From contig JAGXSS010000095.1 of NCBI GenBank assembly GCA_018334055.1, positions 1 through 47,529 on the forward strand: a DNA stretch of 47,529 nucleotides, written 5' to 3'. Position numbers and translations under genes: made by a program. This document shows, piece after piece, positions 38,772 through 44,896 of this stretch. This DNA is from Peptococcaceae bacterium. GTDB lineage: Bacteria > Bacillota > UBA994. Numbering within the stretch: the stretch's first letter is position 1; each line of letters begins with the position of its first letter. Below the pieces are notes generated by a model. The model was not told where the DNA came from. It ran no database searches and saw only the letters and a program-made list of their open reading frames with translations.

Positions 38772-39194
38772 TTATGTTGGTGGATTAACCTTCCCATGAA
38801 ACCTGATTCTTTCCGCTAGTTCTTTGATCTTAGCTTCAATCTCGGCGATTAAAGCCACATACGTCTCATCGCTTTTTCCTGTCGGGTCGGTTAGCCCCCA
38901 GTCCTCCCTGTGTCGGCAGGAAAGGTACGGGCACGCGACATTACAGCCCATAGTCACGACGATATCAACCGGCGGAATATCAGAAAGCTGCTTGGGATAT
39001 TGTGCTTTCTCCATGTCAATCCCATGAAGCTTTTTCATCAATCGGACGGCATCCTGATTGATGTACTGTACTGCCTCCGTTCCTGCCGAATAGCTTTGAA
39101 AAACGTCACCGGCAAGGCATTTGCCCAACGCTTCGGCAATCTGCGAACGGCAGGAGTTATGAACACAAATGAAGGCGACTTTAGGTTTGTCCAT
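38772..39194 (-). CDS. arsC: Thioredoxin-type arsenate reductase ArsC
   Basis: A 140-residue LMW-phosphatase-like arsenate reductase. The P-loop CVHNSCRS (Cys10, Arg16) binds the oxyanion, and the cysteine relay is in MGCNVACPYLSC. DWGLTDPTG carries the general acid Asp. It reduces arsenate to arsenite, which the Acr3 protein exports. The start overlaps the end of acr3 by 14 bases. It is the last gene of the arsR-acr3-arsC operon. Confidence 0.95.
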   Translation of the reverse strand: MDKPKVAFICVHNSCRSQIAEALGKCLAGDVFQSYSAGTEAVQYINQDAVRLMKKLHGIDMEKAQYPKQLSDIPPVDIVVTMGCNVACPYLSCRHREDWGLTDPTGKSDETYVALIAEIEAKIKELAERIRFHGKVNPPT

Positions 39195-40296
39195 GTTGCT
39201 TTCCCTCCTTGAACCAATGACGGGTTCTGTTGGCGATACGCACCAGCGTCAACATAACAGGCACTTCCACAAGCACCCCGACAATGGTCGCCAGTGCCAC
39301 CGGCGAAGCCGCGCCAAACAGGGAAACCGCCACCGCTACGGCTAGCTCAAAGAAGTTGGACGCACCAATCATGCCGGCCGGAGCCGCTATGTCATGCGGC
39401 AGTTTAAGCAGCTTGCAGGCGGCATAGGCTATAAAAAAGATTAGAAAGGTTTGCAATGTGAGCGGTATGGCAATTAGCAGGATGTGCAGGGGGTTGCTCA
39501 ATATCGCTTCCCCCTGAAAAGAGAAAATGATAACCAGCGTGAGCAATAAACCGATAATTGTAATGTTATTAAACTTGGGAATAAACCTTTGCTCGAAGTA
39601 TTCCGCACCTTTGTGCTTAATCATCCAAGCCCTTGTCGCCATGCCTGCGGATAGCGGTATGACCACGAACAAGACCACCGACAGAATAAGCGTATCCCAC
39701 GGAACAGAGACGCCGCCCACGCCAAGCAAAAAAGCAACGATTGGCGTAAAGGCTACGAGAATAATGAGGTCGTTTGTTGCAACCTGTATCACGGTGTAAG
39801 CCGGCCTGCCCTTGGTCAGGTGACTCCATACAAAAACCATTGCCGTGCAGGGTGCGGCACCAAGCAAGATAGCGCCGGCCAAGTAATCCTTGGCAAGTTC
39901 GGCTGGAATAAACCCTTTGAAGACCACATAGAAGAAAAACCAGGCGATGCCGAACATCGTAAAGGGCTTAATCAGCCAGTTCGTCACCCAAGTGACATAC
40001 AGGCCTTGCGGGTTATTGCCCACGTTCTTAATGCTGGCGAAGTCCACCTTCATCATCATGGGATAAATCATCAACCATATTAAAACAGCGATGGGAACTG
40101 AAACCTGTGCATACTCAAATTTGCCTAAAAAATTAGGTATGACAGGAAGAAACTTTCCAACCAAAATACCGGCAACCATACACAGAGCCACCCATAGGGT
40201 CAGGTATTTCTCAAAAAAGCCGATCCCCGTATTTCTTTCTCCGCCCTCAGCATTACAAGCATTGACCGGGCCACCGCAGGAGTTTTCTTTATTCAT
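39181..40296 (-). CDS. acr3: Arsenite efflux transporter Acr3
   Basis: A 371-residue BASS-type transporter with ten spans, among them ILLGAAPCTAMVFVWSHL with the conserved Cys and GASNFFELAVAVAVSLFG. It extrudes arsenite driven by the proton gradient. The ATG at 40296 follows AAGGATG and overlaps the end of arsR; an in-frame GTG at 40314 would add six residues. The N-terminus has an extra Cys-rich tail (SCGGPVNACNAEGG) before the first span. Confidence 0.95.
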   Translation of the reverse strand: MNKENSCGGPVNACNAEGGERNTGIGFFEKYLTLWVALCMVAGILVGKFLPVIPNFLGKFEYAQVSVPIAVLIWLMIYPMMMKVDFASIKNVGNNPQGLYVTWVTNWLIKPFTMFGIAWFFFYVVFKGFIPAELAKDYLAGAILLGAAPCTAMVFVWSHLTKGRPAYTVIQVATNDLIILVAFTPIVAFLLGVGGVSVPWDTLILSVVLFVVIPLSAGMATRAWMIKHKGAEYFEQRFIPKFNNITIIGLLLTLVIIFSFQGEAILSNPLHILLIAIPLTLQTFLIFFIAYAACKLLKLPHDIAAPAGMIGASNFFELAVAVAVSLFGAASPVALATIVGVLVEVPVMLTLVRIANRTRHWFKEGKQHGQT

Positions 40297-40633
40297 TTTG
40301 ATCACATCCTTCACGGCCTACACCGCCGTCCGCCTCTTCCTGGCAGATGCAGTTTTCCTTAGCAGAAGTGAGGACGTGGAAAAACTGTGCTGTTTCCCTG
40401 ATTGTTTCCGCATCCAGCGAGTAGTACGTCCATTTGCCCTCATTTCTGACCTTAACAAGCCTGCATTCGCGCAGGAGTTTCATGTGGTGGGACAATGTGG
40501 ATTGGGAGATGTTGAATTTCTCTAAAATCATGCAGGCGCATAACTCCCCGCAGGAAAGCATCTCTACAATCATGGCTCGCTTGGGCTCGCTTAATGCTTT
40601 GAACACTTTTGCATGCTGTGTGTAGTCTGTCAT
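40289..40633 (-). CDS. arsR: ArsR/SmtB family arsenic-responsive repressor
   Basis: A 114-residue winged-helix repressor. The metal-binding motif ELCACMI is in the alpha-3 position; the DNA helix is ISQSTLSHHMKLLRECRLV, with RNEGKWTYYSL as the wing. The start at 40633 follows GAGGTGG. Cys residues near the C-terminus (ENCIC, EGC) could add to arsenite binding. It controls its own promoter just upstream. Confidence 0.95.
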   Translation of the reverse strand: MTDYTQHAKVFKALSEPKRAMIVEMLSCGELCACMILEKFNISQSTLSHHMKLLRECRLVKVRNEGKWTYYSLDAETIRETAQFFHVLTSAKENCICQEEADGGVGREGCDQNE

Positions 40634-40669
40634 ACCCGCCACCTCACATCTAAAGAATTCGATATGACC

Positions 40670-40698
40670 ATTATAATTGCCAAATCGAAGACTGTCAA
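40670..40698 (-). promoter_or_regulatory. Consensus sigma-A promoter of the ars operon
   Basis: On the minus strand a perfect TTGACA (40698-40693) and a perfect TATAAT (40675-40670) are separated by 17 bases, 37 bases before the arsR start. Such a full-strength promoter fits a system held off by a repressor. An imperfect inverted region around CATATCGAATTC just downstream is a candidate ArsR operator. Confidence 0.85.
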
Positions 40699-40888
40699 TG
40701 AAGTGAAAGTGAAACGAACGGACCCACATTGGCCTGACGGCCGTGTTCGCGGAGAACACGTCACTTTCGAGAGGTATATTGAGTTGTTTGTAGATGGGTA
40801 CCCGGAGGGCTTGAAGCCTACCGTGCAGAGCGGAGTAGAAGCGCACCGGCAGCCCTTTTTTCACGCCCACCACAGAGGCGCAACTCCG

Positions 40889-41893
40889 CTAGTTACAGAT
40901 GATTTGACCCGCACGGATGTCTGCTATGTATTGCTCCACGCGGCAAGAGAGCTTGCGGTAGAGGTTAATGAGCCAATCGGGCAAGTCGCGGTTGTTTATG
41001 TCAATGTCGAGGCAGAGCCTTAATCTGGCGATAAAGAACAGGCGGTGGAAGCGAACGTAGAGAGGCATGCGCATGAGCTCGGAGTCGTCTAGGGTGCGCT
41101 CGGAGCGGTAACCTTCAATAAAGAGCTGAAAGCGCGAGTCCCGCACATCTATTGTCTGACCCTTGAAGAAATCCCGGACTGCGAAAACGATGTCGGCGGC
41201 GTACCACATTCGGGCAGAGTCATCAAAATCGAGGACGGAAATTCTGCCGTCTTCCCACACTAAGTTGTCTGACTCAAAGTCGAAGTGGATTAGGCCATAG
41301 TTCTGTGTGTTCTGGGGAAGATTGGCTAGGTCTTCTCTCACAGCTTGTAATTCTGCCTTAATCTCTTCCTCTAGGGCGAACGGAGCTGCAAAATCCAGTA
41401 AATCGACCCAGGAAGGACGCTGTTCCACAAAAACACTGGGAAGCTTCCCCGAGACATTGTGCAACTTGGCCAGCTCTGCCCCCCACGCCCTTAGCTGTTC
41501 CGGGGCCATGTCACTTGAGTCAATGTGCTTTCCGGTAAGGCGGGTGAAAGCGACGGCTACGTAGGCTCCCCACTCCGTCGCGACAACCTCGACATACCTG
41601 CCGGACACGGATTTGACCGGGGCGTTAACACTCAAACCTAGTTTAGCTAAAGTACTTAGAACCTCTACCTCAGCCTCTACAAGTTGAGGGGTCCTTTCAG
41701 TGATGCTATTAAAGCGCAGAAAGACACGTTGGTCCCCTACGGCGGTGATGCAAGCAAAGTTGGCACTCGCCCGCCAGAAATAGACTTTGTCCGGGTCACA
41801 CCCCCAAGGAGCACCGACCGCCGACAATATTGGTGAGCGATAATCCTTGTCTATGGTCGCGACCACTTTGTGCATCAGGCTTAGTTTCATCAT
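40889..41893 (-). CDS. Aminoglycoside phosphotransferase (APH)-like kinase
   Basis: A 334-residue small-molecule kinase of the APH/choline kinase fold. The catalytic loop is GLIHFDFESDNLVWE and the metal Asp is in ISVLDFDDSARMWYAAD. The N-terminal lobe has FLRFNSITERTPQLVEAEVEVL. Related Bacillota proteins include spore coat CotS kinases and homoserine kinase-like enzymes. The ATG at 41893 follows AAGGAG. The ligand is unknown, and there is no sign that it is a true resistance gene. Confidence 0.85.
   Translation of the reverse strand: MMKLSLMHKVVATIDKDYRSPILSAVGAPWGCDPDKVYFWRASANFACITAVGDQRVFLRFNSITERTPQLVEAEVEVLSTLAKLGLSVNAPVKSVSGRYVEVVATEWGAYVAVAFTRLTGKHIDSSDMAPEQLRAWGAELAKLHNVSGKLPSVFVEQRPSWVDLLDFAAPFALEEEIKAELQAVREDLANLPQNTQNYGLIHFDFESDNLVWEDGRISVLDFDDSARMWYAADIVFAVRDFFKGQTIDVRDSRFQLFIEGYRSERTLDDSELMRMPLYVRFHRLFFIARLRLCLDIDINNRDLPDWLINLYRKLSCRVEQYIADIRAGQIICN
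41795..41826. repeat. First copy of a ~31-bp imperfect repeat
   Basis: GTCACACCCCCAAGGAGCAC followed by CGACCGCCGACA, lying within the APH-like gene near its N-terminal part. The same sequence returns at 42216-42246 with one base deleted and one substitution. Confidence 0.7.
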
Positions 41894-41975: not shown

Positions 41976-42305
41976 ATGTACCTAGGAAAAGATGGACATG
42001 TAAATACCCACCACCGGGTTTTCGATGCAGTTCCCAGCGTCGACCATCCCGCCCTCTGGGAAGCACGACGCACTTTTCGTCTGCGAAGCATCCTCTGGAA
42101 CAACCCGGCATTGTTTGGGTCCTACATCAGCGCTACTGATAGTGAACTCACTGCGGATGAAAAAGCCCTCTTGTTAGAATGGAGTCGCCGCAAGCGCGAA
42201 GACTACGTTGTCTGCGTCACACCCCAAGGAGCGCCGACCGCCGACATGCGACCCCCTCTGGCGGTTAAGGATTCAAACCTGAGCCCCTTTTTGAGCTCCG
42301 CGTAG
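41976..42305 (+). CDS. Unrecognised small protein, probably chimeric or truncated at its C-terminus
   Basis: A 109-residue frame starting behind a weak GGGGTG site. Residues 30-76 (RRTFRLRSILWNNPAL, then TADEKALLLEWSRRKREDY) resemble helical segments I have seen in SEC-C-like hypothetical proteins with a WxxNP-like and a SW/RR core, but I cannot name the family. From residue 80 the coding DNA is the second copy of the 31-bp repeat also found in the APH gene, and after that it overlaps the opposing repeat protein. The last 30 residues are therefore probably not native, suggesting truncation by recombination. Confidence 0.45.
   Translation: MYLGKDGHVNTHHRVFDAVPSVDHPALWEARRTFRLRSILWNNPALFGSYISATDSELTADEKALLLEWSRRKREDYVVCVTPQGAPTADMRPPLAVKDSNLSPFLSSA
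42216..42246. repeat. Second copy of the ~31-bp imperfect repeat
   Basis: Matches 41795-41826 with one C missing from the C-run and one A-to-G change. Flanking bases show no further similarity, so only a short segment has been shared. Confidence 0.7.
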
Positions 42306-42768
42306 AAAGGTAGTAATTATATGTTAAGGCAGCAATTAGCGCAGCTACAACCAGCGGACAGTCTGAGACTACAAGGTTGACATCGTGCCCGCTAAACTCT
42401 CCCCCCAACCGACCACGCAGTTCCCCGCCATTAGGGTTGTATATAAGCCTACAACTAAACCCTATAACATCCCCACCTACTCTGCCACCGACCTCGTAGC
42501 CTGAAACTTTGAGAGCGACATCCGCACCTACGATATCCCCTCCCACCCGGCCGCTAATCTCTTCCTCGGTAAACCTTAGGCGCACGTCCTGCCCAAGTAT
42601 TCCACCACCCATACGCCCTGTAATAAGGCCATGCTGACTGATTACAAACTTAACATCTGCACCCCGGGACAATCCGCCGATACGCCCTTCAACGCTCCCC
42701 GATGATACATAACAGTCAACATCAAGCCCTCCGATGATCCCGCCCACTCTACCCGTAACTTTACCCAT
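42265..42768 (-). CDS. Six-repeat GR-x-GG protein with C-terminal membrane helix (unrecognised)
   Basis: 167 residues. The start at 42768 follows AGGTGAG and begins MGKVTGRVGG; an in-frame GTG at 42801 would add 11. Six tandem units of 22-24 residues follow the pattern [VIL]-x-GR-[VIML]-GG-x-[ILVF]-x-G-x-DV-x-L-x-V: starts at VTGRVGG, VEGRIGG, ITGRMGG, ISGRVGG, VGGRVGG, LRGRLGG. Strand-turn-strand units of this size are expected to stack into a beta-solenoid. After the sixth unit comes a hydrophobic segment (LVVAALIAALTYNYYL) and a basic tail, so the solenoid may be tail-anchored. The family is not one I recognise, and bactofilin-like polymers are only an analogy. Confidence 0.75.
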   Translation of the reverse strand: MGKVTGRVGGIIGGLDVDCYVSSGSVEGRIGGLSRGADVKFVISQHGLITGRMGGGILGQDVRLRFTEEEISGRVGGDIVGADVALKVSGYEVGGRVGGDVIGFSCRLIYNPNGGELRGRLGGEFSGHDVNLVVSDCPLVVAALIAALTYNYYLSTRSSKRGSGLNP

Positions 42769-42804
42769 GCTTCTCACCTTCCATATGTTCAGTTCCGGCA
42801 CTTC

Positions 42805-43044
42805 TCACCATAGACTTTTTCTCGCTTCACCCAGTACAGCAGACAGGCTTTCATGCCAGTTCATCCCCAACCTAGACTTCATGTGCGTCAATTCGCCCCG
42901 CTCCTCTGCTTCCCAGAGCGCAAAGAAGGCGTCCGTCCGGGCAATACGGGCCTCGAGTTCGCGGCGGCTGAGGGGAAAGTTTAGCTCCACGCCATGATCT
43001 TTTCTATATCCATACTTGCCTCCTCGCTGGTCGTCGCTCGTCAA
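42805..43044 (-). CDS. Small unrecognised protein, start uncertain (possible frameshift)
   Basis: A frame of 79 codons from a TTG at 43044, with helix-rich ELEARIARTDAFFALWEAEE and GMNWHESLSAVLGEARKSLW. The TTG has no ribosome binding site and lies in a heptamer repeat. A good GAGGAGG precedes an ATG at 43013 in another frame, which reads MDIEKIMAWS and then stops. Inserting one base there would join it to LNFPLSRREL in the main frame. The gene is either started at GTG 42990 (61 residues) or is broken by a one-base deletion. It lies just upstream of the six-repeat gene and may share its transcript. Confidence 0.5.
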   Translation of the reverse strand: MTSDDQRGGKYGYRKDHGVELNFPLSRRELEARIARTDAFFALWEAEERGELTHMKSRLGMNWHESLSAVLGEARKSLW

Positions 43045-43064
43045 CCGTCAACCGTCAACCGTCA
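43039..43064. repeat. Tandem heptamer repeat (CGTCAAC)
   Basis: Three full copies and a five-base part of CGTCAAC in a row. The repeat contains the stop codon of the ABC-F gene and the possible TTG start of the next one. Probably a slipped-strand expansion. Confidence 0.85.
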
Positions 43065-44896
43065 CTTTCGCGCTCCCATTGCGCATACAGCTCTTTGAGG
43101 CGCGAGCAAACCCACATATAGCGCGCGATAGCGTCGCGGCCGCCGTCTTTTTGCTTGAGAAATTCCGCTTTCGCCATCAAATCCTCTTGGGCGACCTTCT
43201 CCTGCTCTAACCGCGTTATTTCGTTCTCTAGAGCATCGATGTTCGAAGACTTGCGCTTGGCATCCTGACTTTTGGGTGTAGCTATAACGCTGCGCCCTTT
43301 GGGCACCGGCAAGCTTTGTCGCCAGTCGCTATAGTTTTGTCGGTGGTCGATAATCTTTTTGTCGGCAAACTGCCAGACACGGGTAGCTACATTGCTAAGA
43401 AAGTACCGGTCATGCGAAACAAACAAAATGACACCCGTGTACCCTAGAAGCGCACGTTCTAACACTTCCCTGCTTTCGATGTCTAAGTGGTTCGTGGGTT
43501 CGTCAAGCACCAACACATTCGCCGGCGATAGCAGAAGTTTAGCTAGACTCAGGCGGTTGCGCTCCCCTCCCGACAATGTGCCCACGCTCTGAAACACCAT
43601 GTCGCCCCTAAAAAGAAAGCCCGCGAGACAGTCTCTCGCTTCCCGTTCAGTTAGGTGGGGAAAGTTCAGCGAAATCTCTTCGAGCACCGAGTGGGCAGTG
43701 CCGCTAAGCCGCAATTCTTGATCAAAATACCCCACGCTCACCCCTGCGCCCCAACGCAGCTTGCCGCGATGAGGAATCTCGCCTACTAGGGCACGGAGCA
43801 GCGAGGTTTTGCCGCTGCCGTTTGGCCCGAGCAGAGCGATTCGCTCGCCGCGGCGCACCTGTGCCGAGAAGGGCGCGAACAGCATTCTTTCATCGTAGCC
43901 AACTTGAACATCACTCACTTCTAAGACGTCCCGACCGCTGCGCTTGTGCTCTCCAATGTGCAGCTTTAGGCTCGTTTTGCCCTGTGTTTTGACTACGGCG
44001 CGATGGCTCATGCGCTCCAGTCTTTTTTCCCAGCTCTTGGCGGTAGTCGAGCGCGTACCGGCACGAAAGCGGTTGATCAATTGCTTCATGCGCTGCATTT
44101 CCGCTTGTTCCCGCTCGTAGACTGCACCAATGAGCGAAAGGCGTTCCGCTTTAAGAGCGCGGTATTTACTGAAATTGCCGGGGTAGTCGGCAATGTGGTG
44201 ATGTTCTAACTCTAGGCAGCGCGTCACCACCCGGTCCAAGAAATGACGGTCGTGGCTAACAACTACTACCGCTCCCCGGTATGAGGGCAAAAAGCCCTCT
44301 AGCCATTCCACTGCGCTTAAATCAAGGTGGTTCGTCGGCTCGTCAAGCAGCAATACTTCGGGCTCCTCGAGTAAAGCCTTGGCTAAGGCCGCCCGCACCT
44401 TTTGTCCTCCGCTGAGCTGCTCGGTGGAGAGGGCAAGGTCTTTTTCTGTAAAGCCCAGCCCAAACAAGACCGAGCGAACTTTGAAACCAAGCTCGTATCC
44501 CCCCGCCGCTTCGAACTGCTGCGTCAGCTCTCCATAGCGGCGCAAGAGCTTGTCGAGCTGTCCCGTGTTGCTCATCTGTGCTTCTAGCGCGCGCACTTCC
44601 CCCTCGAGCTGCTTGATGCCCGCAAACACGCCTGTTACCGCTTCTTCAAGACTTTTCCCCACCGGCAAATCAGGGTCCTGCGCGAGATAGTGCGTTTTTG
44701 CGCCGCCGTGCAACGTAATTGCGCCCTCGTCAGGCTTCAGTTTTCCGCTGATGACTTTCAAGAGCGTCGTTTTGCCACAGCCGTTGCTCCCTAACAGAGC
44801 TACCTTCTCTTTGGCACTAATCGCGAAATTTACACGGTCCAGCACCAGCTTGTCGAAATAGTAGGTCGTAATATCTTTAACCACCAGAACGGACAC
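43055..44896 (-). CDS. ABC-F family ATPase
   Basis: 613 residues with two ATP-binding cassettes and no membrane spans. The first has LGSNGCGKTTLLK, signature LSGGQKVRAALAKALLEEP and LLLDEPTNHLDL. The second has LGPNGSGKTSLLR, LSGGERNRLSLAKLL and LVLDEPTNHLDIES. Between them is a basic linker (EREQAEMQRMKQLINRFR), and the C-terminus is a coiled coil of about 60 residues. ABC-F proteins act on ribosomes, in translation or antibiotic protection; those with a coiled-coil tail are often of the Uup/YdiF type. The MFS gene upstream is 15 bases away and probably in the same operon. Confidence 0.93.
   Translation of the reverse strand: MSVLVVKDITTYYFDKLVLDRVNFAISAKEKVALLGSNGCGKTTLLKVISGKLKPDEGAITLHGGAKTHYLAQDPDLPVGKSLEEAVTGVFAGIKQLEGEVRALEAQMSNTGQLDKLLRRYGELTQQFEAAGGYELGFKVRSVLFGLGFTEKDLALSTEQLSGGQKVRAALAKALLEEPEVLLLDEPTNHLDLSAVEWLEGFLPSYRGAVVVVSHDRHFLDRVVTRCLELEHHHIADYPGNFSKYRALKAERLSLIGAVYEREQAEMQRMKQLINRFRAGTRSTTAKSWEKRLERMSHRAVVKTQGKTSLKLHIGEHKRSGRDVLEVSDVQVGYDERMLFAPFSAQVRRGERIALLGPNGSGKTSLLRALVGEIPHRGKLRWGAGVSVGYFDQELRLSGTAHSVLEEISLNFPHLTEREARDCLAGFLFRGDMVFQSVGTLSGGERNRLSLAKLLLSPANVLVLDEPTNHLDIESREVLERALLGYTGVILFVSHDRYFLSNVATRVWQFADKKIIDHRQNYSDWRQSLPVPKGRSVIATPKSQDAKRKSSNIDALENEITRLEQEKVAQEDLMAKAEFLKQKDGGRDAIARYMWVCSRLKELYAQWERESDG

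Follow-up and report, generated by a model that had tools for sequence, protein, structure and literature searches.

Within a 47,529-nucleotide stretch of DNA from a Peptococcaceae bacterium (contig JAGXSS010000095.1; “the window” denotes this whole stretch), one gene poses a simple question: what is a small protein made of six similar glycine-rich units and a hydrophobic C-terminal segment, and is it, as a preliminary description of this DNA proposed, a beta-solenoid fixed to the membrane by a “tail anchor”?

The gene and its features are listed in Table 1. An alternative, longer GTG start at 42801 is common to the closest relatives only; in nearly all other members of the family the protein starts 4-5 residues ahead of the first GR, which points to the ATG at 42768 as the probable start. 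Nor is the 167-residue frame a chance one, since a profile search found the encoded protein conserved in 43 of the 398 sampled genomes of the host phylum, mostly in one copy each; the genome holding the window carries it once. The six GRxGG units of 22-24 residues reported in the preliminary description are borne out: GR[VIML]GG occurs six times in the window protein, with its Arg at residues 7, 29, 52, 74, 96, and 120 (spacings of 22, 23, 22, 22, and 24 residues), while 20,000 residue shuffles of the same protein gave a mean of 0.036 such motifs and a maximum of 3. The longer pattern GR[VIML]GG...G.DV, which had been called “strict,” stands in its first part, found in all six units, and is relaxed in its second, with G.DV present in five of the six and unit 5 reading GFSC instead. 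The hydrophobic C-terminal stretch is present as described.

Table 1. Positions of the gene, its predicted protein elements, and the transferred block within the window.
Feature	Position	Strand	Remarks
Protein-coding gene, 167 aa, ATG start	42265..42768	-	Stop codon 42265-42267; start and length conserved family-wide
Shine-Dalgarno-like GGAAGGTGAG	42773..42782	-	Upstream of the ATG; read in the sequence
Repeat 1, residues 2-23	42700..42765	-	Strands 2-8 and 15-21
Repeat 2, residues 24-46	42631..42699	-	Strands 25-30 and 37-43
Repeat 3, residues 47-68	42565..42630	-	Strands 48-53 and 60-66
Repeat 4, residues 69-90	42499..42564	-	Strands 70-76 and 81-89
Repeat 5, residues 91-113	42430..42498	-	Strands 92-98 and 103-111; conserved GF, inward Cys or Val
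Repeat 6, residues 114-136	42361..42429	-	Strands 116-122 and 127-135
C-terminal helix, residues 139-161	42286..42354	-	First half is the proposed barrel core, its inside position putative
Block shared at 90% nucleotide identity with another genus	42263..42854	-	Comprises the gene and 86 bp before its ATG; flanks unrelated

The earlier statement that the protein belongs to no named family still holds. Nothing usable came from Pfam, NCBIfam, or PADLOC for the 38 family members or from PDB sequences for the family, and no Pfam family matched the window protein up to E = 1. Matches to bactofilin, DUF4097, or a named repeat, which the preliminary description had singled out as the ones that would speak against it, were searched for and none was obtained: the Pfam model of DUF4097 matched neither the window protein nor any of the 38 members, bactofilin was absent even among the weak Pfam matches of the 38, and the window protein had no bactofilin match. 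At the level of structure, Foldseek searches of the PDB and of viral structures returned nothing at E 0.001 or better, and the literature on the motif, on helix-filled barrels, and on DUF7662 yielded nothing relevant. The window protein is a member of an undescribed and unnamed family. Two candidate relationships were rejected. Eight members match PHROG 1277 (“DNA methyltransferase”) weakly (best E 2.6e-4; window protein 0.0086), a match that spans some two of the window protein's repeats and was discounted as a likely product of glycine richness. A phage or viral origin was likewise discarded, as phage records and viral contigs held no relatives, only minor tail protein matches at chance level (E 3-10).

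Family members are also encoded on four Deinococcus megaplasmids, where they are annotated as hypothetical proteins; the sole source of these was a plasmid collection and not a whole-genome scan. Deinococcus deserti has one such homologue, WP_012695020. A scan of genome contigs with the window protein as query recovered two close relatives only. The repeat count is exactly six in the members, degenerate and broken copies aside. One genome (G350) has two full tandem copies of the gene and another (G103) a second copy that is degenerate, while decay is evident as in-frame stops in two genomes (G159 and G233) and as a truncated copy in a third (G209). Within classes the distribution is patchy, the gene being found in 10 of 15, 6 of 12, and 15 of 26 genomes. 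In Deinococcus taeanensis (L085, 7605-8474) the six-repeat domain is fused to DUF7662 (PF24698), itself uncharacterised; on two Deinococcus plasmids (L086, 7929-8414, and L087, 7929-8429) the family gene shares four bases with the end of a gene for a cyclase-family protein of the tryptophan-to-kynurenine pathway, and kynU (kynureninase) is nearby.

Comparison of gene neighborhoods between genera found no conserved neighbours or operon partner of the family gene, and its orientation to the adjacent genes is random (same strand in 20 of 33 and 16 of 33 cases). The window gene is 96% and 91% identical in nucleotides to those of two other genera of the same taxonomic family, for which rpoB identity is 68% and 67%; in one of these two genera the DNA on either side of the shared block (42263 to 42854) is unrelated. 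A different species from the same genus as the window, on the other hand, has a copy only 44% identical in protein, at an rpoB identity of 84%. More generally, protein identity is 44-55% between relatives whose rpoB genes are 78-91% identical. The window copy has thus passed recently between genera, as a single-gene unit, at least once. In the gene tree, members from a given taxonomic family otherwise mostly cluster and, given these identity contrasts, the gene seems to have been passed on chiefly by vertical descent and lost in places, with one or more recent transfers across genera in addition. Between the window gene and one of the closest copies (L002), dN is 0.037 and dS 0.036, a dN/dS near 1 derived from changes too few to interpret.

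Several other features of the window were recorded. Some 43 nt are directly repeated 420 bp apart (41784-41826 and 42205-42246), with one copy within an APH-like kinase ORF and the other adjoining the transferred block at its 3' edge; the genome contains the core 24-mer of this repeat at just these two places, and the repeat is possibly a recombination scar. A short tandem repeat of GTCAACC lies between genes at 43034-43060, and at 43055-44896 (minus strand) there is an ABC-F family protein (459 bits against an NCBIfam cut-off of 380 for ribosomal-protection-like ABC-F) with an adjoining MFS transporter. Arsenic resistance genes occupy 38772-40873: an ArsR-family regulator, recognized by Pfam/NCBIfam search, and an arsenate reductase-like protein and an ACR3-like transporter, both recognized by reading of the translations only.

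The AlphaFold2 model of the full-length window protein (pLDDT 87, pTM 0.86), built from an alignment whose rows came partly from loci recovered by genome search, contains 12 strands (two in each repeat) followed by a single helix at the C-terminus; a model of this kind had been suggested as a check in the preliminary description, and we read the result against a solenoid. Judging from the strand ends in the model, the GRxGG Arg lies opposite the G.DV Asp in every hairpin (R74/D83 in repeat 4). Strand residues alternate between an inward mean hydropathy of +2.18 and an outward mean of -2.00 (p=3e-13, 38 members), where the faces were assigned by the parity of Arg and Asp and these two residues themselves count among the outward columns. 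Charge covariation was then compared, as an indirect test of strand pairing, at outward positions of 34 non-redundant members, taking only the hairpin register from the model coordinates. The 22 neighbour pairs predicted for an antiparallel meander have a mean charge covariance of -0.063 (p=0.0003, by a permutation that ignores kinship), whereas pairs expected from solenoid stacking have 0.0008 (p=0.52); shifting the partner to another repeat, with kinship kept, abolished the signal. This pattern fits six hairpins paired in sequence into an antiparallel meander of 12 strands. For the closure of a barrel, the pair concerned (A1-B6), taken alone, has no significant covariance (p=0.18). A model lacking the helix, based on an alignment of three nearly identical sequences and too shallow to be informative, reached a pLDDT of 40.

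As for the C-terminal segment, crossing a membrane takes about 18-22 apolar residues, and the window protein has 14 in its longest apolar run. Among the 37 complete members this run measures 10-17 residues in 33, with only 10 for three of the four from Deinococcus, which is too short to span a membrane; it reaches 18-20 in the other four. The best 19-residue hydropathy is 2.16 in the window protein; a value of 1.6 is reached in 12 of the 37 members. Residues 141-150 of the helix are uncharged in nearly all of the 38, and K/R/H follows the helix in most Firmicutes members, contrary under the positive-inside rule to the topology of a tail anchor. Three residues separate the last strand from the helix in the model, whose confidence is highest in the first half of the helix (96) and falls to 75 at its outer end and 38 in the tail. 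By the standard barrel formula (our own calculation), a closed 12-stranded barrel would have a radius of about 10.6 Å, which is the usual distance between a sheet and a helix; with no helix on its axis such a barrel would be hollow. Because the run is short and uncharged, the model confident, and the radius fit for an axial helix, we read the helix as a barrel core and not as a tail anchor: the 12 strands would close into a barrel around the protein's own C-terminal helix, which would lie in the lumen. The family protein presumably resides in the cytoplasm.

How do other readings fare against these data? The one first put forward, a parallel six-rung beta-solenoid that is tail-anchored in the membrane and self-associates as a bactofilin-like scaffold, squares at first sight with units of 22-24 residues that each hold two strands and with a hydrophobic helix at the C-terminus, and the four members with the longest apolar runs would suit an anchor; we nevertheless consider it very unlikely. 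Stacking covariation is absent where antiparallel pairing is significant, the repeat number is fixed at six, and no solenoid appears among the 50 best Foldseek matches in the PDB, the best of which, although weak, are meander barrels. Bactofilin (PF04519) and other beta-solenoids do resemble the window protein in their short glycine-rich beta-strand repeats, but they form parallel rungs and polymers, whereas the window protein lacks a Pfam match and its covariation speaks against parallel stacking. It is probably not a beta-solenoid. Nor is it, probably, tail-anchored, given the short apolar run (only 10 residues in three Deinococcus members), a best 19-residue hydropathy below 1.6 in 25 of the 37, the K/R/H beyond the helix, and a helix modelled with confidence right after the last strand; some chance is left that the helix dips into the membrane. 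The best meander-barrel matches themselves are retinoic-acid and fatty-acid binding proteins (FABP/CRABP; E 0.06, TM 0.34, rmsd 8.6 Å), and they raise the idea of a carrier for hydrophobic ligands in which the helix would act as a plug that can move. FABP/CRABP and the window protein have the antiparallel up-and-down meander in common, with its sequential antiparallel order, but the fold match is not significant; FABP/CRABP have ten strands, a hollow ligand cavity, an N-terminal helix-turn-helix lid, and no internal repeats. In the proposed barrel, moreover, the lumen would already be occupied by the helix, and no inward charge for a ligand head group is broadly conserved, save K/R/Q/N beside the turn of repeat 3, which makes a ligand carrier just as improbable as the anchored solenoid. 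Twelve antiparallel strands, as in the modelled window protein, are also found in autotransporters (which carry a helix in the barrel lumen) and in other 12-stranded outer-membrane barrels; the window protein is not a membrane barrel, since its outward face is polar and its strands are 6-9 residues long. Its chain, moreover, opens straight away with strand 1 and so has no space for a signal peptide.

A role in sporulation, for instance as a spore coat or forespore protein, was proposed because almost every carrier in the host phylum forms spores: SpoIVA was detected in 41 of the 43 carriers and in 295 of the 355 non-carriers (Fisher p=0.04, uncorrected and ignoring kinship), and one of the two carriers without SpoIVA has Spo0A. 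However, most of the sampled phylum sporulates anyway, one carrier (G006) lacks both SpoIVA and Spo0A and yet has an intact gene, members exist in Deinococcus (which is not known to sporulate), and promoters resembling those of sigma E, F, G, or K, sought by simple patterns, were not enriched in 32 upstream regions, so that we regard this role as unlikely. The same can be said of an accessory defence, immunity, or antitoxin-like protein, encoded by a patchy, fast-changing lone gene that moves horizontally. Such a function would accord with the recent cross-genus transfer, with the low protein identity between relatives of much higher rpoB identity, and with the decayed copies in some genomes, but PADLOC gave no match above noise, the gene has no conserved defence-gene neighbours, and it has no phage or viral relative.

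The best explanation, to which we assign a probability of roughly 0.6, is a small, probably soluble cytoplasmic beta-repeat family whose members would form a meander barrel around their own helix and may bind a partner. Its structural part, a soluble stand-alone module built as a meander barrel, we hold with equal confidence, while the binding or adaptor role is, taken by itself, doubtful. In the proposed barrel, the sheet, with one hydrophobic and one polar face, would close with its hydrophobic side inward, round the C-terminal helix; the GRxGG Arg and the G.DV Asp, facing across each hairpin, would probably clamp it, and the glycines would form the tight turn and give the helix space. The partner might be bound via the polar outer wall or the loops, by a protein that stands alone or serves as an adaptor fused with DUF7662. 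The gene itself is mostly a lone one, frequently gained and lost. The architecture would be of the same kind as the GFP-like beta-can, an 11-stranded barrel around a central helix, a likeness of design and not a search match, GFP being absent from the 50 best Foldseek matches; GFP has longer strands, no six-fold repeat, and an internal helix with a chromophore.

The fold of this six-repeat family is possibly new to science. The full proposition, a new soluble fold in which a six-fold repeated 12-stranded antiparallel barrel holds its own helix in the lumen, shared by spore-forming Bacillota and Deinococcus and mobile as a single gene, is a tentative one, short of even odds. A protein of many genera that is nameless in Pfam and NCBIfam, and whose fold class is possibly absent from the PDB, now has a family model that can be tested. 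The recent transfer of the gene as a single unit suggests a useful accessory function and, if the model is true, a barrel of six-fold repeats that encloses a helix would be of interest for the evolution and design of repeat proteins.
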